Made by a program: the position numbers and the translations under genes. The notes below the pieces were generated by a model that was not told the DNA's origin, did not search any database, and saw only the letters and a list, made by a program, of their open reading frames with translations. Shown piece by piece: positions 11,194 through 42,792 of a stretch of DNA of 45,103 nucleotides. Within the stretch, counting starts at the first letter, position 1; each line of letters starts with the position of its first letter. The stretch covers positions 1-45,103 of the forward strand of contig QKHE01000131.1 in the NCBI GenBank assembly GCA_003250155.1, given 5' to 3'. Origin of the DNA: Chloroflexota bacterium (GTDB lineage: Bacteria > Chloroflexota > Limnocylindria > Limnocylindrales > CSP1-4).

Positions 11194-12233
11194 GCGGGCC
11201 GATGGCTGCCCGGCCGGAGGCGCTGTCGCGCTTCCTGCTCGGCCTGCGGGCCCGGGATGCCTCGGAACACACGATCCGGTCGTACGAGACCTCGGTCGGT
11301 GCCTATCTCGACTGGCTCGCCGAGCGCGGTGCGGACTGGCGGACGCCGTCGCGCGGCGAGCTGCGCGCGTACCTCGCCAAGCTCGTTGGCGCGGGAGCGC
11401 GGACCTCGGTGAGCCAGCGGCTCGCGGCGATTCGATCGTTCCACCGATTCGCCGCCCGGAGCGGCCTCGCGGCCGGCGACCCGTGGGGCGGCATCGCCAC
11501 GCCCAGGCTGCCGAAACGCCTGCCGCGGGTGCTCGAGGTGGAGCAGATCGAGCGGCTGCTCGCCGCGGTTGACGACCCCGCCGGCACCCGGCGGCGGCCC
11601 GCCGACCCGGAGCTCCGCGTCGCGCTGAGCCTGCGCGACCGGGCGATCATCGAGGTCGCGTATGCCGCCGGGCTGCGCATCAGCGAGCTGGCGTCGGCGT
11701 CGCTCGCGGAGCTGGACCTGCGGCGTGGTGAGCTTCGCGTTCTCGGTAAGGGCCGCAAGGAGCGGATCGGCCTCCTGGGCGGGCCGGCCATCGCCGCGCT
11801 GGAGGCGTACCTCGAGGAGGGCCGGCCGGCCCTCCTCGAACGAGGCCGGGCAAGGCAGGAGCCACGGGGACGAGGGGGCCGCGATGAGCGCCCGGAGGAG
11901 CGCGAAGAGGGGCGCGAGCCGGACGCTCTGTTCCTGAACCACCACGGGGCGCCGCTCGGGGTCCGGGGCCTGCGCCTCCGGATCGACCGCCTGCGCCGGG
12001 CCGCGGGCCTGCCGGAGGGCGTGTCGCCGCACACGCTGCGCCACTCGTTCGCGACCCACCTGCTCGACGGCGGGGCGGACCTGCGCATCGTCCAGGAGCT
12101 GCTGGGCCACGAGAGCCTCGCGACGACCCAGGTCTACACGCACGTGTCGCCGGCACGGCTGCAGGCCGCCTACCAGGGCGCCCACCCCCGGGCACGGCGG
12201 GACCCGGCGCCCACCTCGGCGGACCGCGCTTGA
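11190..12233 (+). CDS. xerC: Tyrosine recombinase XerC/XerD-like
   Basis: SAM-like N-domain; '[10 protein letters not shown]...[11 protein letters not shown]...[41 protein letters not shown]'; topA-xerC adjacency; GTGA overlap with the topA stop. Confidence 0.9.
11812..11839. repeat. Perfect 28-bp palindrome inside xerC
   Basis: TCGAGGAGGGCCGG|CCGGCCCTCCTCGA, self-complementary over its full length. Confidence 0.9.
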
Positions 12234-13903
12234 CCGATCAGGCGCCGGCAGAGGTCGCGGCCGACGGCGTCGCCCCGGAGCCGATGGTCGCCGACGCTGC
12301 CGGCGGCGGGCGCGGCCCCGGCGGCGGGAGCGGCGGGATGGCGCTGGCGCGAGCCGGGCTCATCGTCTCGGTCGCCTATCTCGGCGCCCGGATCCTGGGC
12401 TACGTCCGGGTCGTGGTCATCGGCTCGACGCTCGGCGCCGGGCCGGAACTCGACGCGTTCTTTGCCGCATTCCGGATCCCGGACCTGATCTTCCAGCTCG
12501 TCGCCGCCGGCACGGTCGCCGCGGCGCTCGTGCCGATGCTCGCGGGCGAGCTCGGGACGGGCCGACCCGGCCGCGCCTGGCACATCGTGTCGACGATCGC
12601 GACGCTGATGCTGCTCGGGCTGGCGATCCTCGCCGGATCCGCCTTCGTGCTGGCGCCGATTCTCGTGCCGATCATCACCCCTGGGTTCGAAGGAGCCCAG
12701 CTCGAGCGGACGATCGAGCTGACGCGCCTGATGCTTCTCGCCCCGGTGTTCCTGGCTCTCGGCGCGGTCGCGACGAGCACGCTCAATGCCCACCATCGGT
12801 TCGCGGCCGCGGCCGTCGCGCCGATCGTCTACGACCTCGCGATCATCGGCGCCGCGCTGATCCTCACGCCGAGCCTGGGGGTCACGGGGCTGGCGCTCGG
12901 CGTCGCCGCCGGCGCGCTTGGCCACCTCCTCGTCCAGCTGCCGGCCCTCCGGCGGGCCGGCTTCCGGTTCAGGCCGAGCCTCGACGTGGGCGACCGCGAC
13001 GTCAGCCAGGCGCTGCGGCTGATGATCCCGCGGGCCGTCGCGCTCGGCGCCGGCCAGATCACGATCGTCGTCGCGACCTCGCTGGCGACCGGCCTCGAGC
13101 CCGGCTCGGTGACGGCGTTCACGTTCGCCTTCACGCTGATGTCGATCCCGCTCTCGGTCGTCGGCGTGCCGATGGGCGTGGTGACCCTGCCGACGCTCTC
13201 GCGCGACCTCGCACGTGGCGCCGTCGACAGCTTCGCCGCGCTGCTCGAGCGTTCGCTGCGTCTGATCCTGTTCGTGGTGGCGCCGATCGTCGGGCTCGGG
13301 ATCGTGCTCCGGGAGCCGGCGGTGACGCTGCTGTTCAACCACGGCCGGTTCGACGAGACCGGGGTGGCCCTCGTCGCGGCGACCTTGCTGCTGCTGCTGC
13401 TGGCGCTGCCGGCCGAGGCGCTGATCACGATCCTCGTCCGGGCCTTCTATGCGGATCGCGACACGCGAACCCCGGCCTTCGCCGCGCTGCTGGCGATGAC
13501 CATCAGCATCACGATCGCGGTCCTCGCCGTGTCGAGGCTGGATCTCGGCCTCGCCGGGATCGGGGCGGGGATCGCCGTCGGTTCGTCGGTCGAGGCGGTG
13601 CTGCTGAGCCTGCTGCTGCGACGCCGCTTCGCGGGCTTCGACCTCCGCGGCCTTGCCAGGCTCGCGGCGCTGGTCGGGCTCTCGAGCGTCGTCGGGGCGG
13701 TGGTCGCGTTCGGCTTCGCGAACCTGCTCGCGGGACCGCTCGCCTTCGGCGAGGTCCACGTCGCCGCGTTCCTCGAGCTCGCGATCGCCGGCGGCGCCGG
13801 CGGCGGGGCGTACCTGCTGATGACGCGACTTTTGCGACTCCCGGAGGTTGGGCTCATCATGCGGGTCATGTCCGACACGCTGTCGCGCGTCCGGCCGGCG
13901 TGA
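12230..13903 (+). CDS. murJ: Lipid II flippase MurJ (MviN family)
   Basis: Multi-TM MVF family protein: '[34 protein letters not shown]', '[12 protein letters not shown]'; TTG start in TTGA overlap. Confidence 0.92.
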
Positions 13904-15036
13904 CCGCCGGGGTCACGGCCGAACCGGCAGCCGGCCCGCTCGGCCCGCACCCGGCCTCCGACGCCGAGCTCGAGGACTGGGACGCGCGAGCCGTCGACGG
14001 CCCGACGGGCCACGTGCTGCAATCGCGGGCGTGGGCCGAGTATCGCGCGGCGCATGGCTGGCGGACGTGGCCGCTCGTCTTCGAGGACGGCTTCCCGATG
14101 CTCGTCCTCGGTCACGACCGGCCGGTCATCGGCGGCGGCTGGGCCTACGCGTCGCGAGGGCCGCTTCCCGAACCGGACCCGGCGACGACCGCCGACCGAG
14201 CCGCCTCCGCGGCGGCGTTCGTGGCGAGCCGGGGCATGGACGCCCTGATCATCGACGGCGAGACGCCGGCCGGGTCGGGCCTGCCCGAGCTGATCCGCAC
14301 ACGGGGCTTCACACCGACCGAGGAGCTGCAGCCGTCGCGCCACCGGATGGATCTCGAGCTGCCGCTCCGGACCGACGACGAGACCATCCTGCGGTCGTTC
14401 GCGGCAACGACCCGAAATCTCATCCGCCAGGCCGAGCGACGCGGCCTGCGGGTCGTGCGCCTGGACACGCGGCCGTGGTCGCCGGAGGAGCCGTTCGAGC
14501 CCTCGGCCGACGCGGACCTGTCCGATCCGACGGCCCTCCTGACGACGTTCTACGGCATGCTCGACGCGACCGCCCAGCGTGTCGGCTTCGCGCTGGCGTC
14601 GGCGCCGGCCTTCCTCGACTGGTCGAAGCGGGCCCTCGGCGCCGGTCATCTCGTCTACCTGCAGGCCGTCGATTCGGACGACCAGCCGGTCGCCGGCGCG
14701 ACCTTCTACCGCCACGGCCGGCGGCTCACGTACTCCCTCGCCGGCGACCGCGCGGAGCTCCGGAAGAGCCATCCCGGCGCCGTCCGGCTGCTGCTGTGGC
14801 GCGGCATCCAGATCGCCCTGCGCGAGGGTCGCGAGACGATGGACCTCGGCGGCGTCGACGTCCGCGGCGCGAGGGGCCGGCCCGGCCCCGGCGACGAGAC
14901 GTACGGCAAGTACCAGTTCAAGGCGTCGTTTGGGGCGCGCTGGGTCGAGCTCAGCGGGGCGCACCAGCGGACGCTGCGACCGCTGCGGCACGCGGCCGGA
15001 CGAATCCTCGGGAGGCTTGCCGCGGTTGGCCGCTGA
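13900..15036 (+). CDS. FemAB/FemX-family peptidoglycan bridge aminoacyltransferase (GNAT fold), copy 1
   Basis: 'GHVLQSRAWAEYRAAHGWR', 'ATTRNLIRQAERRGLRV', 'GATFYRHGRRLTYSLAGDRAELRKSHPGAVRLLLWRGIQIALREGRETMDLGGVD', 'YGKYQFKASFGARWVEL'; GTGA overlap with murJ. Confidence 0.85.
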   Translation: MTAGVTAEPAAGPLGPHPASDAELEDWDARAVDGPTGHVLQSRAWAEYRAAHGWRTWPLVFEDGFPMLVLGHDRPVIGGGWAYASRGPLPEPDPATTADRAASAAAFVASRGMDALIIDGETPAGSGLPELIRTRGFTPTEELQPSRHRMDLELPLRTDDETILRSFAATTRNLIRQAERRGLRVVRLDTRPWSPEEPFEPSADADLSDPTALLTTFYGMLDATAQRVGFALASAPAFLDWSKRALGAGHLVYLQAVDSDDQPVAGATFYRHGRRLTYSLAGDRAELRKSHPGAVRLLLWRGIQIALREGRETMDLGGVDVRGARGRPGPGDETYGKYQFKASFGARWVELSGAHQRTLRPLRHAAGRILGRLAAVGR

Positions 15037-16165
15037 GCGACGCGCCGGACGCGGCGGGGCTGGGCTGCCAGACACCCCCGCGGCCTGGGACGCCTACGTC
15101 CGGGCCCAGCCGGCGGCGACCTACCTCCAGACCAGCGCCTGGGCGCAGCACAAGCTCGCGACCGGCTGGCGACCGCAACTTGTCCTGGCCGCCGGCCCGG
15201 AGGGAGGCACCATCGGCGCCCAGGTCCTGCTGCGCCGGGTGCCGCCGCTGCCGTGGCCGTTCGCCTACGCGCCGCGCGGGCCGTTGGCGGATCGCTGGTC
15301 GGTCCCGCTGCTCGAGGCATGGTCGCGACGGCTGCGCGACGCCGCGGCGAGCGACCGCCCGCTGGCCCGGGCGAGCGTCTTGCGCATGGATCCCGAGGTC
15401 GAGGAGGAATTCGAGATCGACGAGGTGCATGGCGGCAGCGTCGGGTTCGAGGGCGCCCTCGCGCGGCTGGGCTGGCTCCGGGCGCCGGACGTTCAGCCGC
15501 GAACCACGCGCATCATCGACCTGGCGGCCGACGAGGCGGCGTTGTGGCACGACCTCCGAAAGAAGTGGCGCCAGTACGTCAACAAGGCCCGCTCGAGCGA
15601 CGTCGTCGTGCGCGACGTCGATGCCGCCGCCGAGCCCGGCGCGTTCGCGACGTTCCACCGGGTCATGCGCGAGACCTCGGGGCGCACCGGCATCCCCCTC
15701 CGAACGGAGGCCGTCTACCGTGAGCTGTGGGCGGCATTCCAGCCGAGCGGCGAGAGCCGGCTGCTGTTCGCGGAGCGCGACGGGGACGTGCTCGCCGTCC
15801 TGCTGCTCGTGTCGTGCGGCGGCCGGGTCGTGGAACCGTACGGCGGGATGACCGCGGCTGGCGGCGAGACGCGGGCGAACTACCTGCTCAAGTGGGAGGC
15901 CATCCGGACCTCGCGCGAGCGGGGCGGGCGATCGTACGACCTGTGGGGCCTCGTGCATCCGGGGATCAGCCATTTCAAGGAGGGCTTTGGCGGGCGGCCG
16001 GTCCGCTACGTCGGGTCGTGGGACCTGCCGCTCTCGCCGGTCGGGGGCCGCGTCTTCCGCGCTGCGGAGTGGGGCCGGCGGACGGCTCGACGGGCGGTCC
16101 GCGTCAGCCGGGGCCGGTCGATCGGCGCGGCCGCGGGCGCGGATCCGGTGACCCCCGATGCCTGA
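15026..16165 (+). CDS. FemAB/FemX-family peptidoglycan bridge aminoacyltransferase, copy 2
   Basis: 'ATYLQTSAWAQHKLATGWRPQLVLA', 'LRKKWRQYVNKARSSDVVV', 'ANYLLKWEAIRTSRERGGRSYDLWGLVHPGISHFKEGFGGRPVRYVGSWDLPL'; TTG start overlaps the upstream stop by 11 nt. Confidence 0.84.
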   Translation: MAAERRAGRGGAGLPDTPAAWDAYVRAQPAATYLQTSAWAQHKLATGWRPQLVLAAGPEGGTIGAQVLLRRVPPLPWPFAYAPRGPLADRWSVPLLEAWSRRLRDAAASDRPLARASVLRMDPEVEEEFEIDEVHGGSVGFEGALARLGWLRAPDVQPRTTRIIDLAADEAALWHDLRKKWRQYVNKARSSDVVVRDVDAAAEPGAFATFHRVMRETSGRTGIPLRTEAVYRELWAAFQPSGESRLLFAERDGDVLAVLLLVSCGGRVVEPYGGMTAAGGETRANYLLKWEAIRTSRERGGRSYDLWGLVHPGISHFKEGFGGRPVRYVGSWDLPLSPVGGRVFRAAEWGRRTARRAVRVSRGRSIGAAAGADPVTPDA

Positions 16166-34643: not shown

Positions 34644-37451
34644 ATGCCCAGCCCCGCTCCCGAACGTGATCCGCGGATCGAATGGCGATCCGCCGCCGAG
34701 ATCCGGAGCCGCTTCGTCGAGTTCTTCGCCGAGCGCGGCCACACGGTCGTGCCCAGCGCCAGCCTCGTGCCGGCTGGCGACCAGACGCTGCTGTTCACGA
34801 ACTCCGGGATGGTCCAGTTCAAGGACGTCCTGACCGGGGTCGAGAAGCGGTCGTACACGCGGGCCGTCGACTACCAGCGCTGCCTCCGCGTCGCCGGCAA
34901 GCACAACGACTTCGAGGAGGTCGGCCGGACGCCCCGCCACCACACGCTGTTCGAGATGCTCGGCAACTGGAGCTTCGGCGACTACTTCAAGCGTGAGGCG
35001 ATCCACTGGGCGTGGGACTTCCTGACCCGTGACCTCGGCCTGCCCGGGGAACGGCTCGCGGCGACCGTCTACTCGACCGACGACGTGGCCCACGAGGTCT
35101 GGCAGGACGAGATCGGCCTGCCGCCCGAGCGGCTGGTCCGCTGGGGTGACTTCCCGAGCGGCGACGAGAAGAACTGGTGGCGGATGGCCGACACGGGGCC
35201 GTGCGGACCGTGCTCGGAGATCCACTTCGACCGCGGGCCCGAGTTCAGCGAGGGCGACTTCTGCATCCCCGACCACTCCGAGACCTGCCCGCGCTGGCTC
35301 GAGGTCTGGAACCTCGTGTTCATGGAGTTCGAGCTGCACGCGGACCGCTCGCTCACGCCGCTGCCGGCGCCGGGCGTCGACACGGGCATGGGCCTCGAGC
35401 GGATCGCGAGCGTCGTGCAGCAGGTCCCGACGAACTACGACACCGACCTGTTCGTCGCGATCCATGCCCGGATGCGCGAGCTGCTCGGCCACGACCCCGA
35501 CGCGTTCGAGGCGGAGCGGTTCAGCTACCAGGTCATCGCCGACCACTCTCGGGCGATCACGTTCCTGATCGGCGACGGCGTGACCCCGTCGAACGAGGGC
35601 CGCGGCTACGTCTGCCGCCGCATCCTGCGACGCGCGGTTCGCCATGGCCGACTGCTCGGAAGAACCGAGCCGTTCCTGGCCGAGACCGCCAAGGTCGTCA
35701 TCGACACGATGGGCGAGGCCTACCCGTACCTCGTCGAGGTCCAGGCCGCGATCCTCGGCGCGATCGCCCGCGAGGAGGCCCAGTTCATCCGAACCCTCGC
35801 GGCCGGCACGAACCTGCTCGAGGAGGCGCTGATCCCGCTGACGTCAGAGGCGAGCGTCGTCGGCCGCCAGGCTGAGGCCCTGACCGCCGACGCGCCGGTC
35901 CTGCCCGGCGACGTCGCGTTCAAGCTCCACGACACGTACGGCTTCCCGATCGACCTGACGGTCGAGCTGGCGGCCGAGTACGGCGTGCGCGTCGACCGCG
36001 CGGGCTTCGAGGCGGCGCTCGAGGGGCAACGCGAGCGAAGTCGCAGCGGCAAGAAGGCCGACCTGCGGCGGCAGGCCGAGCAGGCCCAACTCTACGAGTC
36101 CATCCGCGGCCGCGCCGGCGACACGACGTTCCTCGGCTACGAGACGACAACCACCGGGGCCAGGGTGGTCGCCATCCTGCGCGACGGCATCGAGTACGAG
36201 GACCTCGAGGCGAAGGGCGACGAGGAGCTTCGAACGGAGGCCGGGGCTGCCGCCGAGATCGTCCTGGACGAGACGCCGTTCTACCCCGAAGGCGGCGGCC
36301 AGATCGGCGACCGCGGCACGTTGCGCGACGCCGACGGACGCGTCGTCTTCGAGGTCGAGGACACGCAGCGCGTGGCGGGCACCCAGGTGGCCGGCCTGAT
36401 CGCCCATCGCGGCACGCTCCGCGGGCGCCTCGCGGTCGGCGACACGGTCACGGCTGCGGTCGACCCGGAGCGGCGGGCCCACACGATGCGCAACCACACC
36501 GGCACACATCTCCTCCATCGGGCGCTCCGGAACGTGGTCGGTGAGCGGGCCAAGCAGGCCGGCTCGCTCGTCACGCCGGACTACCTGCGCTTCGACTTCC
36601 CGTTCGAGCGGGGCCTCACCGACGACGAGAGGCGATCGATCGAGGACGAGGTCCGGCGAATCGTTCGCGAGGACCGGCCGGTGACGATCGAGTACCTGCC
36701 GATGGCCGACGCGATCGAGCGCGGCGCCGACGCGTTCTTCGACGAGAAGTACGGCGAGACGGTCCGCACCATCCGGGTCGAGGACTACTCCTTCGAGCTG
36801 TGCGGCGGCACGCATTGCCGGGCGTCCGGCCAGATCGGGAGCTTCGTGATCACCGGGGAGCGGAGCATCGGCTCGGGCACGCGCCGGATCGAGGCGCTGA
36901 CCGGCGCCGGCGCCGATGCCCATCTCCGCGACAAGCTCGCGGTCCTCGACCAGGCCACCGAGGCCGCCGGTGCGAACACCGCCGAAGCGCTGCCCGACCG
37001 GATCGCGACCCTGCAGGCCGAGCTGAAGGACACGCGTCGCAAGCTGCGCGAGGGTGGCGGATCGCGGTCCGTGGCGCCGAAGCCGAAGGACCTGCGCGAC
37101 CGCGTCGAGACGTTCGACGGCGTGTCGATCGTCACGTTCGCCGCGCCGTTCGAGTCTCCAGATGCGATGAAGGGCTACGCCAGGGACCTGCGCTCGGCGC
37201 TCGGCGCGAACGTCGTGGCGCTGGCCCTCGATGCCGACGAGCCGCAGGTGTTCGTGACGGCCGACGAAACCGCGGTGGCCAAGGGCATCTCGGCCGGCGA
37301 GCTGGTCAAGCTCGCCGTCGGCGAGATCGGCGGCAAGGGTGGCGGCCGGCCCGAGATGGCCCAGGGCCGAGGCACGAAGCGCGACGGGGTCGAGGCAGCC
37401 ATGGCCGCCGTCCGGGCGGCAGCGCGCGAGGCCGCGTCCCGGCGCAGATGA
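34644..37451 (+). CDS. alaS: Alanyl-tRNA synthetase
   Basis: 'IRSRFVEFFAERGHTVVPSASLVP', 'LLFTNSGMVQFKDVL', 'RNHTGTHLLHRALR', 'ELCGGTHCRASGQIGSF', C-Ala domain. Confidence 0.97.
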   Translation: MPSPAPERDPRIEWRSAAEIRSRFVEFFAERGHTVVPSASLVPAGDQTLLFTNSGMVQFKDVLTGVEKRSYTRAVDYQRCLRVAGKHNDFEEVGRTPRHHTLFEMLGNWSFGDYFKREAIHWAWDFLTRDLGLPGERLAATVYSTDDVAHEVWQDEIGLPPERLVRWGDFPSGDEKNWWRMADTGPCGPCSEIHFDRGPEFSEGDFCIPDHSETCPRWLEVWNLVFMEFELHADRSLTPLPAPGVDTGMGLERIASVVQQVPTNYDTDLFVAIHARMRELLGHDPDAFEAERFSYQVIADHSRAITFLIGDGVTPSNEGRGYVCRRILRRAVRHGRLLGRTEPFLAETAKVVIDTMGEAYPYLVEVQAAILGAIAREEAQFIRTLAAGTNLLEEALIPLTSEASVVGRQAEALTADAPVLPGDVAFKLHDTYGFPIDLTVELAAEYGVRVDRAGFEAALEGQRERSRSGKKADLRRQAEQAQLYESIRGRAGDTTFLGYETTTTGARVVAILRDGIEYEDLEAKGDEELRTEAGAAAEIVLDETPFYPEGGGQIGDRGTLRDADGRVVFEVEDTQRVAGTQVAGLIAHRGTLRGRLAVGDTVTAAVDPERRAHTMRNHTGTHLLHRALRNVVGERAKQAGSLVTPDYLRFDFPFERGLTDDERRSIEDEVRRIVREDRPVTIEYLPMADAIERGADAFFDEKYGETVRTIRVEDYSFELCGGTHCRASGQIGSFVITGERSIGSGTRRIEALTGAGADAHLRDKLAVLDQATEAAGANTAEALPDRIATLQAELKDTRRKLREGGGSRSVAPKPKDLRDRVETFDGVSIVTFAAPFESPDAMKGYARDLRSALGANVVALALDADEPQVFVTADETAVAKGISAGELVKLAVGEIGGKGGGRPEMAQGRGTKRDGVEAAMAAVRAAAREAASRRR

Positions 37452-38026
37452 CGGATCTCACGCTCCTCGCCGGCGTGTCGGCCCTCGTGGCCGCCGTGGC
37501 GACGGTCGTCGGCGCGGTCCTGCTGATCCTGTTCTTCTCGAAGGGCGAGCCGTGGGGCACGCTCAACGACATCGCGAGCGTCGTGCTGATGGTCGCGATG
37601 CTGCCGCTCGTGCTGGCGATCGCGATCCTCCAGTCCGGGTCGTTTCCGGCCTCGCTGATCGTCGCGGCGGTGGGGCTCGTCGGCGCGACCGGCGCCGGCA
37701 TCGGCCAGGCCCTGCTCGTCGCCAGGCGCTGGACGTACGAGGAGCTGCTGCCGTGGACGCTCGGCTTCGGCGCCGTCGTCGGCCTGTGGTACCTCGGCGT
37801 CGGCGTGCTCGGACTGCCGGTGGCCGACGCCGGGGCGCTGGTCATCCTCGCCGCGGCAGCCGGCGTCGGCTACCTCGCGACCGGTTACGGGTTCTGGCGC
37901 GGGAATCAGCAGCACCCGCTCTCGATCGCCGGCGGCATCCTGCTGCTCGTCGCCTCGACGGCGTTCCTGGCCTGGCTCGGCCTGAAGCTCGTGACCGGCG
38001 AGGTCGCGGTGACCTGGCCGGCATGA
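37448..38026 (+). CDS. Hypothetical multi-pass membrane protein
   Basis: About 6 hydrophobic segments; ATGA overlap with alaS and with the FtsA-like gene. Confidence 0.65.
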   Translation: MTDLTLLAGVSALVAAVATVVGAVLLILFFSKGEPWGTLNDIASVVLMVAMLPLVLAIAILQSGSFPASLIVAAVGLVGATGAGIGQALLVARRWTYEELLPWTLGFGAVVGLWYLGVGVLGLPVADAGALVILAAAAGVGYLATGYGFWRGNQQHPLSIAGGILLLVASTAFLAWLGLKLVTGEVAVTWPA

Positions 38027-39294
38027 CGACGATGGCGAACCTCCGCCGGCTCTGGACGCGTGACGGGCGCGAGCGGCTCGATGCCTGCACGGCGCTCGAC
38101 GTCGGGACCGAGTTCGCGAAGGCCCTCGTGTTCGAGATCGACGAGACGAACCTCGGCATCGTCCGCGGCGTCGGGCGCAAGCGGCAGGGCCTGGCGCACA
38201 TGCAGTCGGGCACGGTGGCCGACATCGCGGCCGTGGTCGACAACTGCTCGGTGGCGCTGCAGGAGGCCGAGGAGATGGCCGGCTTCCGGCCGGAGCAGGT
38301 CGTGATCGGCATCGCCGGCGAGCTCGTGAAGGGCTTCACGACGGTCCACGACCAGCAGCGGGCCAAGGCCGAGCACCCGATCAACGAGAGCGAGCTGGCG
38401 AAGCTGATCGAGGGCGTCCAGCGGCGGGCGATGCAGGAGGCGGAGCGATCGGTGACCTGGGAGACCGGCCTGCCGAGCGTCGACGTCCGGCTCGTGCACG
38501 CGGCGGTCGTGGGGGCCTGGATCGACGGCTACGCGGTCACCAACCCGATCGGCTTCAAGGGCCGCAACGTCCGGATCGCGATCTTCGACGCGTTCGCGCC
38601 GCTGGTGCACCTCGGCGCCCTGCAGACCGTCGCCCAGCGGCTCGGCATGGAGCTGATCGCCGTGGTCGCGGAGCCGTACGCCGTTGCCCGCGTGCTCGAC
38701 AGCGAGCAGATCCGGCAGGCCGGCGCGCTGTTCATCGACGTCGGCGGCGGCACGACCGACGTGGCCCTGGTCCGCCAGGGCGGCATCGAGGGGACCCGGA
38801 TGTTCGCCCTCGGCGGCCGGGCGTTCACGAAGTCGATCGCCGATCGCCTTGAGCTGCCGTTCCCGCGCGCCGAGGCGCTCAAGGTCGACTATGCGCGCGG
38901 CATCGCCGGCGAGCGCGAAGCGGAGGTGCGCGAGATCGTGGCCGACGACGTCGCCGTCTGGGCGGCCGGCGTCGAGCTGGTCATGGAGGAGCTCGCCGGC
39001 GGCGACCTGCTGCCGGGTCGGGTGTACCTGTGCGGCGGCGGTTCGAGGCTGCCGGAGATCGCCGAGGCGCTGCGCGACGAGGCCTTCGCCCGCCAGCTGC
39101 CGTTCTCGCGGCCGCCCGAGGTCTCAATCCTGTCCCCCGAGCAGATCGAGCGGGTCCGCGACGAGACGCGCCTGCTCGTGGACCAGCAGGACGTCACGCC
39201 GATGGGCCTCGCCTACCAGGCGATCGAGCTCGGGACGTCGACGAATGTCCTCGACACGTCGCTGCGGCGGGTCGTGCGGGCGATGCGGATCTGA
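38023..39294 (+). CDS. FtsA/PilM-like actin-fold ATPase
   Basis: 'CTALDVGTEFAKALVFEI', SHS2-like region, 'QAGALFIDVGGGTTDVALVRQGGI', 'LPGRVYLCGGGSRLPEI'. Confidence 0.82.
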   Translation: MTTMANLRRLWTRDGRERLDACTALDVGTEFAKALVFEIDETNLGIVRGVGRKRQGLAHMQSGTVADIAAVVDNCSVALQEAEEMAGFRPEQVVIGIAGELVKGFTTVHDQQRAKAEHPINESELAKLIEGVQRRAMQEAERSVTWETGLPSVDVRLVHAAVVGAWIDGYAVTNPIGFKGRNVRIAIFDAFAPLVHLGALQTVAQRLGMELIAVVAEPYAVARVLDSEQIRQAGALFIDVGGGTTDVALVRQGGIEGTRMFALGGRAFTKSIADRLELPFPRAEALKVDYARGIAGEREAEVREIVADDVAVWAAGVELVMEELAGGDLLPGRVYLCGGGSRLPEIAEALRDEAFARQLPFSRPPEVSILSPEQIERVRDETRLLVDQQDVTPMGLAYQAIELGTSTNVLDTSLRRVVRAMRI

Positions 39295-40979
39295 TGGCCG
39301 AGCCACCGGCCCCGGGAACGCCACCAGCCCCGGCCCCAGCTCCGCCGATCCTGTACCTCGACGTCGACGACGAGATCACGTCGGCCGCGGCACGGATCCG
39401 GAGCATCGACGCGGAGCGCGTCGCGCTGGTCGTGCCGTTCGGGTCGCGCCTCGCGACGTCGCGGATCAACTTCCGGCTGCTGGCCCGCGAGGCGACCGAG
39501 CGCGGCAGGGCGATCGAGATCGTCGCCGCGGACGCGTCGGCGCGGGCCCTCGCGGCCTCGGCGGGCCTCATCGTCCACCCGTCGGTCGCGGCCTTCGAGG
39601 GGCGAGAGCCGAGCGACGGCGGCGCCGCGGGGACGGGCGACACGGAGACGCGCGCCGCGCCGTCGGCGGCAGGCGCCACGGGCGACGAGGCGGACACGGC
39701 GACCAAGGTCTTCGCGGTGCCGAGCGGGGTGACCGAACACCCCGGCCTGTCGAAGCCGCGCGAAGGGTCACGCGTCCCGCTGGTCGGGCCGACCAGGCCG
39801 CCGGTTCGAACGAGCGTCGCTGCCGGCATCGCGGTGGCCCTCGTGGCCATCGTCGCGATCGCCGCCTGGGTGGCCGTCGTCGTGCTGCCGTCGGCGACGA
39901 TCTCGCTGGCGCCTCGGTCCGAGGGCGTCGGGCCGTTCGAGCTGGTCGTGGAGGCGCGACCCGATGTCGCGGCACCAGACCCGGCGGCGCTCGAGATCCC
40001 GGCGCGGTACTTCACGTTCGACGTCGAGGCCAGCGACACCTTTCCCGCGACCGGCGTGAAGGTCGAGGTGACCACGGCGACCGGGAGCGTCCGGTTCTCG
40101 AACCTGGACCCCTTCCGTTCGCGACGCATCGACGCCGGCTCCATCGTGGCCACCGAATCCAAGATCGAGTTCACCGTCCTCGGCGACGTGACGCTCCCGC
40201 CTGCGACCATCGATGCCAGCCTCACGATCATCCCGTCAACGAGCTTCGTTGGCGTCGAGGCGGTCGTCGCCGGCGTTGGCGGCAACGTGGATGCGGGCGC
40301 GATCACCGTGGTGCCGAGAGGCGTGAACAAGAACGCGATCAGCGTGACCAATCCCGAGCCGATCTCGGGCGGCGCGCGGACCGAGTCGCCGCAGGTGAGC
40401 CAGGCCGATGTCGATGCGGCGCTGGCGGCGCTCCAGGTGCTGCTGCGGTCCGATCTCGACGCGATCGCCGCGGACCCGACGGACGTTCCGCCCGGGACGC
40501 GGCTGTTCGGCCAGACCGGCATCGTCAGCGAGGCGGCGCCGACCGTCGACCCGGCGACGCTCGTCGGGACCGACGCGGCCGAGTTCGAGCTCGAGATGAC
40601 CGGCACGGGGACCGTGCTGGGCGTGGACCCGGCGCCGCTCGACGCGCTCGCCGAGGCGCGCCTGGCCGAGCGGGTGCAGGACGGCTGGCGGGTCGTCGAC
40701 GCTTCGATCGTGGTCACGGTCGGCGAGCCCTCGCTCTTCGGCCAGAGCGTGACCTTCCCCGTCTCGGTGCGCGCGACCCAGGTTCGGGTGGTCGACGAGG
40801 AGACCGTGATCGCGGCGGTGCGAGGCCTGATGCTCGCCGATGCGAGGATGCGCCTCGAGGCGTACGGCGACGTCGAGATCTCGCTGTGGCCGGACTGGGT
40901 CTCGAACGTGCCCGACGACCCGTCCAAGGTCGCCGTGACGATCCTCGAGCCGCGGCCCGCCGAGAGCCCCAGCCCGTGA
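39294..40979 (+). CDS. Single-pass membrane protein with 'baseplate J/gp47-like' beta-rich extracytoplasmic region
   Basis: N-terminal soluble domain 'ILYLDVDDEITSAAARIRSIDAERVALVVPFGSRLATSRINFRLLAREA', TM around 'SVAAGIAVALVAIVAIAAWVAVVVLPS', then repeats of beta-type sequence with 'TGSVRFSNLD', 'GGNVDAGAITVVP', 'VTNPEPISGGARTESPQVSQADVDAAL'. Confidence 0.68.
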   Translation: MAEPPAPGTPPAPAPAPPILYLDVDDEITSAAARIRSIDAERVALVVPFGSRLATSRINFRLLAREATERGRAIEIVAADASARALAASAGLIVHPSVAAFEGREPSDGGAAGTGDTETRAAPSAAGATGDEADTATKVFAVPSGVTEHPGLSKPREGSRVPLVGPTRPPVRTSVAAGIAVALVAIVAIAAWVAVVVLPSATISLAPRSEGVGPFELVVEARPDVAAPDPAALEIPARYFTFDVEASDTFPATGVKVEVTTATGSVRFSNLDPFRSRRIDAGSIVATESKIEFTVLGDVTLPPATIDASLTIIPSTSFVGVEAVVAGVGGNVDAGAITVVPRGVNKNAISVTNPEPISGGARTESPQVSQADVDAALAALQVLLRSDLDAIAADPTDVPPGTRLFGQTGIVSEAAPTVDPATLVGTDAAEFELEMTGTGTVLGVDPAPLDALAEARLAERVQDGWRVVDASIVVTVGEPSLFGQSVTFPVSVRATQVRVVDEETVIAAVRGLMLADARMRLEAYGDVEISLWPDWVSNVPDDPSKVAVTILEPRPAESPSP

Positions 40980-41446
40980 CGCTCCTCGGCCTCGATCTCG
41001 GGGAGCGCCGAATCGGGCTGGCGATCGCCGAGCCGGGCGAGCTGTCCGCGCGGCCGCTGGCGACGATCCATCGGGGTCGCGGCGCCGACCCGGCGCGCGA
41101 CGCCGAGGCCCTGGCCCACGTCGTGGCGGCACAGCGCGTGACCGAGCTGGTCGTCGGGCTGCCGCTCGAGGCCAGCGGCGTCGAGGGGCCGATGGCAATC
41201 GCGGCGCGTGCCTGGGCAGCGGACGTCGGCCGACGCCTCGGCCTGCCGGTCGCGATGCGCGACGAGCGCCTGACCAGCCACCTTGCCGAGACCCGCCTCG
41301 GCCCGATGCCGCGCGGTCGCTCGGGCGGCCCGCCGTCACGGACCCAGCGGGACCGGTATCGTGAGCGCGTGGACCGTGAAGCCGCGACGATCATCCTGCA
41401 GGACGAGCTCGACGCCCGCCGGGCGGCGGCGACCGAGGGCGCGTGA
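40976..41446 (+). CDS. ruvX: Putative pre-16S rRNA nuclease / Holliday junction resolvase-like YqgF family
   Basis: 'LLGLDLGERRIGLAIAEPG', 'ELVVGLPLEASG', 'RDERLTSHLAE'; GTGA overlap. Confidence 0.9.
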   Translation: MTLLGLDLGERRIGLAIAEPGELSARPLATIHRGRGADPARDAEALAHVVAAQRVTELVVGLPLEASGVEGPMAIAARAWAADVGRRLGLPVAMRDERLTSHLAETRLGPMPRGRSGGPPSRTQRDRYRERVDREAATIILQDELDARRAAATEGA

Positions 41447-42792
41447 GCATTCGCGGCGGTCGTCCCCCGCGGGAGCCGGAGATGCCGGTCTGGCGCGCCT
41501 CCGACGGCCGTGGCGCGGCGCCGGTCTATCGCCGCCGTCGAGACGGCGGTGGCGGGTTCCGAGTGCCCGGCTTCATTCGCTTCCTGCTCTTCTCCGGCGT
41601 GCTCGCCGCGATCGTCCTCATCGCGTTCCTCACGGCGCTCCGGCCCGTCCTGCGCGCCGGCGTCGTCGGCTGGGCCTGGGACAACCCCGGCTCGATCGCG
41701 CAATTCCCCCTGGTGGCCGAGCTCGTGCGCGAGGACCTCGGACCGGCGCTGACGGCACCGGCGGGCACGGATTCGACCGAGAAGGTCTTCACCGTGAACC
41801 CCGGCGACTCGATCTACGAGCTTGCGCCGCGCCTCCTTGACGAGGGCTTCGTCGCCAGCGAGCGCGCGTTCCTGTACGTCGCCCTCGAGGACGGGCTGAA
41901 CAAGGAGCTGACGGCCGGGACGTTCCTGCTGCGCGGCAACATGACGCCCGAGCAGGTCGCCACGGCGCTCGTCGTCGCGCGTGTCGTCTACGAGACGCTC
42001 GATGTCACGTTCCGCGAGGGGCTTCGCATCGAGCAGATGGTGGCCCTGCTGCAGACCCTCGAGACCGGCGTCGATCCCGCCGCGTTCTACGAGCTGGCGG
42101 CGCACCCGCCGGCGGAGCTCCTGGGCGACTACGCCTGGCTCGAGCTGCCCGAGGGCGCGAGCCTCGAGGGCTTCTTGATGCCCGCCACGTACAAGCTCAT
42201 CACGTCCTCGAACGGCGGCCCGTTCCACGTCACCAACGCGGAGGACCTGATCCGGGCGATGCTCGATCACTTCGAGACGACGGTCGGACTGGATCGGATC
42301 AACGTGCCCGAGGGGCGAGGCATGACGTTCTACCAGATCGTGACGCTGGCCTCGATCGTGGAGCACGAGGCGGCGCTCGACGAGGAGCGGGCGCTCATCG
42401 CCGGCGTCTACCAGAACCGGCTCGACAAGCTGAACGGCGTGGCGCCCGTCCTGAACGCCGACCCGACCGTCAAGTACGCCACCGACACGATGGTCCTGCG
42501 CGAGCTGCCGTTCGAGGACTGGAAGGACTTCTTCTTCTGGAGCCTGCCGGGCGAGCCGCTCGGCCAGGTCCAGGTCTCGAAGGACCTGCAGGGCTACCAG
42601 ACGTACCAGAACGCCGGCCTCATCCCGGGCCCGATCTCGACCGCCAGCCTGGCCTCGATCGACGCTGCGCTCAACCCGGATACGAAGGCCGGCTACCTGT
42701 TCTTCGTGCTGATCCCGGATACCAAGGAGCACGCGTTCGCGAAGACGCTCAAGGAGCACAACGCCAATCTCAGGAAATACGGCTACCGATGA
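41443..42792 (+). CDS. mltG: Endolytic murein transglycosylase MltG (YceG family)
   Basis: N-terminal TM, 'VTLASIVEHEAALDEERALIAGVYQNRLD...LNADPTVKYA...YQTYQNAGLIPGPISTASLASIDAALNP'. Confidence 0.95.
   Translation: MSIRGGRPPREPEMPVWRASDGRGAAPVYRRRRDGGGGFRVPGFIRFLLFSGVLAAIVLIAFLTALRPVLRAGVVGWAWDNPGSIAQFPLVAELVREDLGPALTAPAGTDSTEKVFTVNPGDSIYELAPRLLDEGFVASERAFLYVALEDGLNKELTAGTFLLRGNMTPEQVATALVVARVVYETLDVTFREGLRIEQMVALLQTLETGVDPAAFYELAAHPPAELLGDYAWLELPEGASLEGFLMPATYKLITSSNGGPFHVTNAEDLIRAMLDHFETTVGLDRINVPEGRGMTFYQIVTLASIVEHEAALDEERALIAGVYQNRLDKLNGVAPVLNADPTVKYATDTMVLRELPFEDWKDFFFWSLPGEPLGQVQVSKDLQGYQTYQNAGLIPGPISTASLASIDAALNPDTKAGYLFFVLIPDTKEHAFAKTLKEHNANLRKYGYR

Follow-up and report, generated by a model that had tools for sequence, protein, structure and literature searches.

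What is an actin of the FtsA type doing beside a membrane-anchored, baseplate-J-like protein in the middle of a housekeeping operon? The question is raised by a window of 45,103 nt, the whole stretch of Chloroflexota DNA analysed here, in which a first-pass annotation had singled out a string of five genes as its best candidate for an undescribed system, not an obvious divisome, type IV pilus or tail operon. That proposal hung on two points, namely that the central pair stays together in most relatives and that its ATPase is not simply the sole canonical FtsA. Below, we refer to the 38023-39294 product as the A-protein and to the 39294-40979 product as the J-protein.

The locus and its two proteins

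Reading the gene ends from the DNA, we found that the six genes from alaS to mltG (Table 1) overlap successively by 4, 4, 1, 4 and 4 nt, with the junction sequences ATGA (alaS/37448), ATGA (37448/A), TGATG (A/J), GTGA (J/ruvX) and GTGA (ruvX/mltG). These are the ends, and the overlaps of 1-4 nt, that had been annotated for the genes at 37448, 38023, 39294, 40976 and 41443. Only part of the annotated string held up as a unit: the A-J pair is conserved, whereas the 37448 gene is lineage-specific and ruvX, like alaS, is a housekeeping neighbour. Among the neighbourhoods compared, the 37448 protein was confined to the genus of the window, and its gene is a genus-specific insertion outside the conserved A-J core. 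Both alaS and mltG hold equivalent positions in Chloroflexota and CPR loci, and the murein transglycosylase first noted beside the pair is recognised as such by Pfam and kept in both phyla. Elsewhere in the window (12230-16165), murJ is followed by two FemAB-like genes, forming a wall gene group.

Table 1. Genes and protein features of the alaS-mltG stretch, in window coordinates
Feature	Position	Strand	Basis and remarks
alaS, alanyl-tRNA synthetase	34644..37451	+	Pfam tRNA-synt_2c E 2.9e-187; housekeeping, conserved upstream neighbour
192-aa membrane protein	37448..38026	+	five hydrophobic segments; no family in Pfam/NCBIfam
A-protein, FtsA-fold actin paralogue, 423 aa	38023..39294	+	Pfam/NCBIfam, AF2, Foldseek, tree
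A N-terminal amphipathic segment MTTMANLRRLW, MreB-like	38023..38055	+	hydrophobic moment; low model confidence here
A phosphate-1 motif LDVGT	38095..38109	+	L25, D26, G28, T29 invariant, n=51 sequences
A phosphate-2 motif DVGGGTTD	38737..38760	+	D239, G241, G243, D246 invariant, n=51 sequences
A adenosine motif LCGGGS	39028..39045	+	G338, G339 invariant, n=51 sequences
A C-terminal amphipathic helix LDTSLRRVVRAMRI	39250..39291	+	hydrophobic moment
J-protein, bitopic membrane protein with baseplate-J-like exodomain, 561 aa	39294..40979	+	Pfam Baseplate_J, AF2
J cytosolic N-domain, residues 19-103, alternating strands/helices, signature YLDVDDEIT	39348..39602	+	model
J disordered linker, residues 109-168	39618..39797	+	pLDDT under 50
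J transmembrane helix, residues 173-197	39810..39884	+	model; hydropathy peak 3.07
J outer beta-rich domain, residues 200-550, baseplate J-like	39891..40943	+	Foldseek
ruvX (yqgF)	40976..41446	+	Pfam RuvX E 7.2e-30; conserved neighbour
mltG, endolytic murein transglycosylase	41443..42792	+	Pfam YceG E 6.7e-61; conserved neighbour, likely partner pathway

The A-protein has the FtsA-type actin fold together with the ATP motifs. It matches PF14450 (FtsA) with 60.9 bits (cut-off 31.8; Pfam), and a Foldseek search with its AF2 model (mean pLDDT 87.5) returned FtsA first (7q6i, E 6.2e-32), PilM next (5eoy, E 4.5e-23) and then MreB (E 1.4e-12), which, along with the invariant ATP motifs, bears out the initial description of an FtsA/PilM-like actin-fold ATPase. 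The last 14 residues lie above the 90th percentile of background in hydrophobic moment in 51/51 rows, and this C-terminal helix, judged from sequence, likely binds the membrane as in FtsA. The N-terminal residues, which read MAFWRRIWQRD in relatives, are amphipathic by the same measure in about half of the 51 rows. In family f3 of the window's class, a short A-protein has lost the phosphate-2 and adenosine motifs, yet is still paired with J; these degenerate proteins, in which the phosphate and adenosine motifs are gone (L042:8312-9370 and L044:8708-9763 (minus strand)), are possibly pseudo-actins.

For the J-protein, the AF2 model (mean pLDDT 88.7), PF04865 and Foldseek agree on the architecture proposed at the outset, a cytosolic part, a transmembrane helix and a beta-rich, baseplate-J-like exodomain. 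The Pfam match to PF04865 (Baseplate_J; 30.7 bits, cut-off 21.1) covers ∼40071-40391, and the outer domain found PDB 8kea (E 8.6e-9) as well as baseplate J proteins in BFVD. The cytosolic N-domain gave no reliable match in Pfam, NCBIfam or PHROGs (best Chap-C, E 0.013). Its residues Y21, D23, D25, D26, E27, I28 and T29 are invariant in alignment A5, whose loci were chosen by this motif, and the signature recurs in CPR loci that were not. J relatives were found neither in viral contigs, searched with a profile from a close J alignment, nor in 50,697 phage records, and J is therefore a cellular protein. By sequence, the secreted copper oxidase GlxA of Streptomyces (PDB 4unm/5lqi/5lxz) also carries a baseplate-J-like domain (E 1.3e-6, spanning J profile positions 267-357).

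Separateness from FtsA and linkage of A to J

The A-protein is a second bacterial actin, distinct from divisome FtsA. As a divisome FtsA it failed the equivalog test (TIGR01174 ftsA, 104.7 bits vs a cut-off of 175.9), and Pfam SHS2_FTSA gave no match. The genome of the window has its canonical ftsA beside ftsZ in a separate ddl-ftsQ-sbp-ftsA-ftsZ cluster, and the A-protein is hence not the sole canonical FtsA. Likewise, canonical ftsA adjoins ftsZ in 18/18 Chloroflexota and CPR genomes checked, all 18 genomes tested from these groups encode FtsZ plus a separate FtsA, and ftsZ was found in 0/148 A/J loci. When 17 CPR genomes were searched whole, every one contained the A-protein at E 1e-174 or better and 16 gave a second, weak match; the ten of these that were fetched were all FtsA beside ftsZ. 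A quick-method tree of 63 sequences united FtsA in one clade at 100%, with the A-proteins on the opposite side. Within the latter, the Chloroflexota sequences cluster together bar one divergent row (L091), so that the A-protein may have arisen just once in each phylum. Two other identities were rejected, namely PilM (PilM_2 19.2 bits vs 27; TIGR01175 30.2 vs 133; no pilN/O neighbours) and MreB (TIGR00904 31.8 bits vs 365.8; a separate MreB-like gene in the window's genome, G000:C76).

In genome surveys of Chloroflexota and CPR, J was present in 277/400 and 321/333 genomes, respectively (96% of the CPR sampled), and A at E <= 1e-25 in 125/394 and 181/333, the CPR figure being an undercount. As J is thus commoner than A in Chloroflexota, A is dispensable in some lineages. 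The pair is not split in most relatives: among the matches listed, A and J are same-strand neighbours in 75 of the 77 Chloroflexota with both (62 of those 75 within 250 nt, most of the remaining pairs having a long J N-terminal stretch outside the profile match) and in 103/114 CPR genomes with both, a recurrence that puts the arrangement beyond chance. The order alaS-A-J-ruvX-mltG extends to several Chloroflexota families and to many lineages of CPR, and mnmA frequently precedes it. Besides, among 150 CPR J-proteins listed, 107/114 with a matching N-domain came from genomes with a recognised A, vs 12/36 of those without it; these raw counts, drawn from the J matches listed with kinship uncontrolled, fit a role of the N-domain as a docking site for A.

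A DNA-pattern scan for YxD[IV]DDEIT across 84,980 species, whose reach is confined to phyla with that motif, yielded at least 80 loci, all listed ones encoding J; the matches listed came exclusively from Chloroflexota, CPR and unnamed MAGs, apart from a single MAG that bears the label Chlamydiae. The proteins of this last MAG (L158) resemble those of Saccharibacteria. In genus g24 of family f2 (G037-G055; genomes of ∼1.1 Mb), murC is kept (as confirmed for G037-G041), as is an FtsA homologue, and there was no J match and, where tested, no A at E <= 1e-25; the pair has therefore been lost there with the wall genes kept.

Envelope role and competing explanations

The context of the pair points to a role in the envelope. 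J is carried by 275/353 murC-positive vs 2/47 murC-negative Chloroflexota (kinship not taken into account), and the two murC-negative genomes are drafts from murC-bearing families; since 78/353 murC-positive genomes are without J, a wall can evidently be made in its absence. Downstream of mltG, CPR loci commonly encode a LysM-CHAP protein, and mltG is followed by mreB, mreC and a transpeptidase gene (PBP2) in L247 and L258, with mreD in L247. Where the pair has moved away from this site, alr and ddl can adjoin it: the order in L267 is alr-ddl-A-J, and in L249 alr and a Ddl-like gene flank or neighbour the two genes. L242 and L233 have FemAB genes close to the pair. The alaS-ruvX-mltG linkage alone is common in bacteria and old, and for that reason the nearness of the pair to mltG is weak evidence. 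The gene directly after J encodes a secreted-looking protein in several loci of CPR (L249:8224-9372, L250:5782-6741, L267:3044-5044).

By analogy with MreB-RodZ or FtsA-FtsN, A and J most likely work together in wall growth, A as a membrane actin and J as the trans-membrane scaffold which it positions; to this mechanism we give an even chance. The A-protein, an actin of the FtsA type, would bind ATP, attach by its amphipathic ends to the cytoplasmic side of the membrane, probably as short filaments, and bind the cytosolic N-domain of J. The J-protein would relay the organisation of A across the membrane, its baseplate-J-like outer domains assembling side by side beneath the cell wall, and the resulting trans-membrane patch or ring could position peptidoglycan remodelling (by MltG and, in CPR, the LysM-CHAP protein) and synthesis during growth.

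The main rival, which we consider unlikely, is a second divisome actin, with A acting alongside FtsZ/FtsA at the septum and J serving as an FtsN-like activator outside the membrane. The closest fold to A is indeed FtsA, including the structure with an FtsN peptide (7q6i), each of the 18 genomes tested from CPR and Chloroflexota has FtsZ alongside a separate FtsA, and in other bacteria MltG is linked to division and to growth of the wall; however, the A/J loci lack ftsZ throughout, and the extra cell-wall operon, where present, is mreBCD-PBP2 and not dcw. Improbable as well is a type IV pilus-like or secretion platform with A as PilM and J as the analogue of PilN/PilO: PilM is the next-best fold of A, and PilM-PilN likewise joins an actin fold to a bitopic partner, but both PilM models score far below cut-off and no pil genes were recognised in the loci read. 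This platform is made less likely by a cultured Saccharibacterium whose pilM-pilN-pilO lie in distinct pilus loci (PMC12206443). That A and J are unrelated genes, merely retained by position in an old housekeeping operon, would accord with alaS, ruvX and mnmA being housekeeping genes of conserved order; it is a very improbable account, as the two stay together outside that operon (L249, L250, L267) and conservation of the J N-domain tracks A. Hardly credible at all is a domesticated phage tail or injection device built on a baseplate J protein. The outer domain does match phage baseplate J by HMM and fold, but superposition is limited to the local barrel (TM 0.16-0.25), tail, sheath, tube or spike genes are lacking nearby, viral contigs and phage records hold no relative, and a membrane anchor with a cytosolic domain is foreign to baseplates. 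The earlier view that this is no divisome, pilus or tail operon is supported.

A bolder reading, to which we give clearly less than an even chance, is an undescribed actin-based envelope machine that dates from a common ancestor of Chloroflexota and CPR and was inserted there between alaS and ruvX. Systems that join an actin to a bitopic partner are known in kind, and the A/J combination is, as far as we checked, apparently undescribed: a search of the open-access literature found no description of the pair, in keeping with the novelty originally proposed, and the A and J genes go unmentioned in the main text of the Saccharibacteria Tn-seq paper. If true, the cluster would be a shared derived character uniting Chloroflexota and CPR, and in CPR cells it would be central to growth. 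CPR bacteria account for a large share of bacterial diversity, most of it uncultured, and few cell-biology factors peculiar to them are known. The presence of J in nearly all CPR sampled, together with a distinct actin, marks it as a strong candidate for a core role in the envelope; the gene order common to both phyla offers independent evidence on whether CPR belong beside Chloroflexota, a placement that is debated, and the baseplate-J fold would have found a use within the bacterial envelope. The function of A-J can be tested, because genetic tools are available for a Saccharibacterium (PMC10633639).

Comparison with known systems

The outer domain of J resembles the phage baseplate J / gp47 family (PF04865) by HMM and fold, whereas the protein as a whole differs in being chromosomal, membrane-anchored and near-universal in CPR, with neither tail genes nor a phage relative found. 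With PilM-PilN of type IV pili, the pair shares an FtsA-like actin and a membrane protein with a cytosolic part; A and J differ in having no adjoining pilus genes and in falling short of the PilM models, and J departs from PilN in its folded alpha/beta N-domain and baseplate-J outer domain. As for FtsA (with FtsN), A has its nearest actin fold there and shares the ATP motifs, the C-terminal amphipathic helix and a bitopic partner, but it does not lie beside ftsZ, scores below cut-off, lacks SHS2_FTSA, forms a separate clade and coexists with FtsA, and J is unlike FtsN. As a RodZ, J was rejected on its N-domain, which alternates strands and helices in the model and matches no HTH family in Pfam. 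A, in turn, differs from MreB in that a separate MreB gene is present and its fold score is much nearer to FtsA. What the pair has in common with MreB-RodZ is a membrane actin with an amphipathic N-terminus, set among wall genes, and in J, as in RodZ, a cytosolic domain, one transmembrane helix and a beta-rich outer domain.
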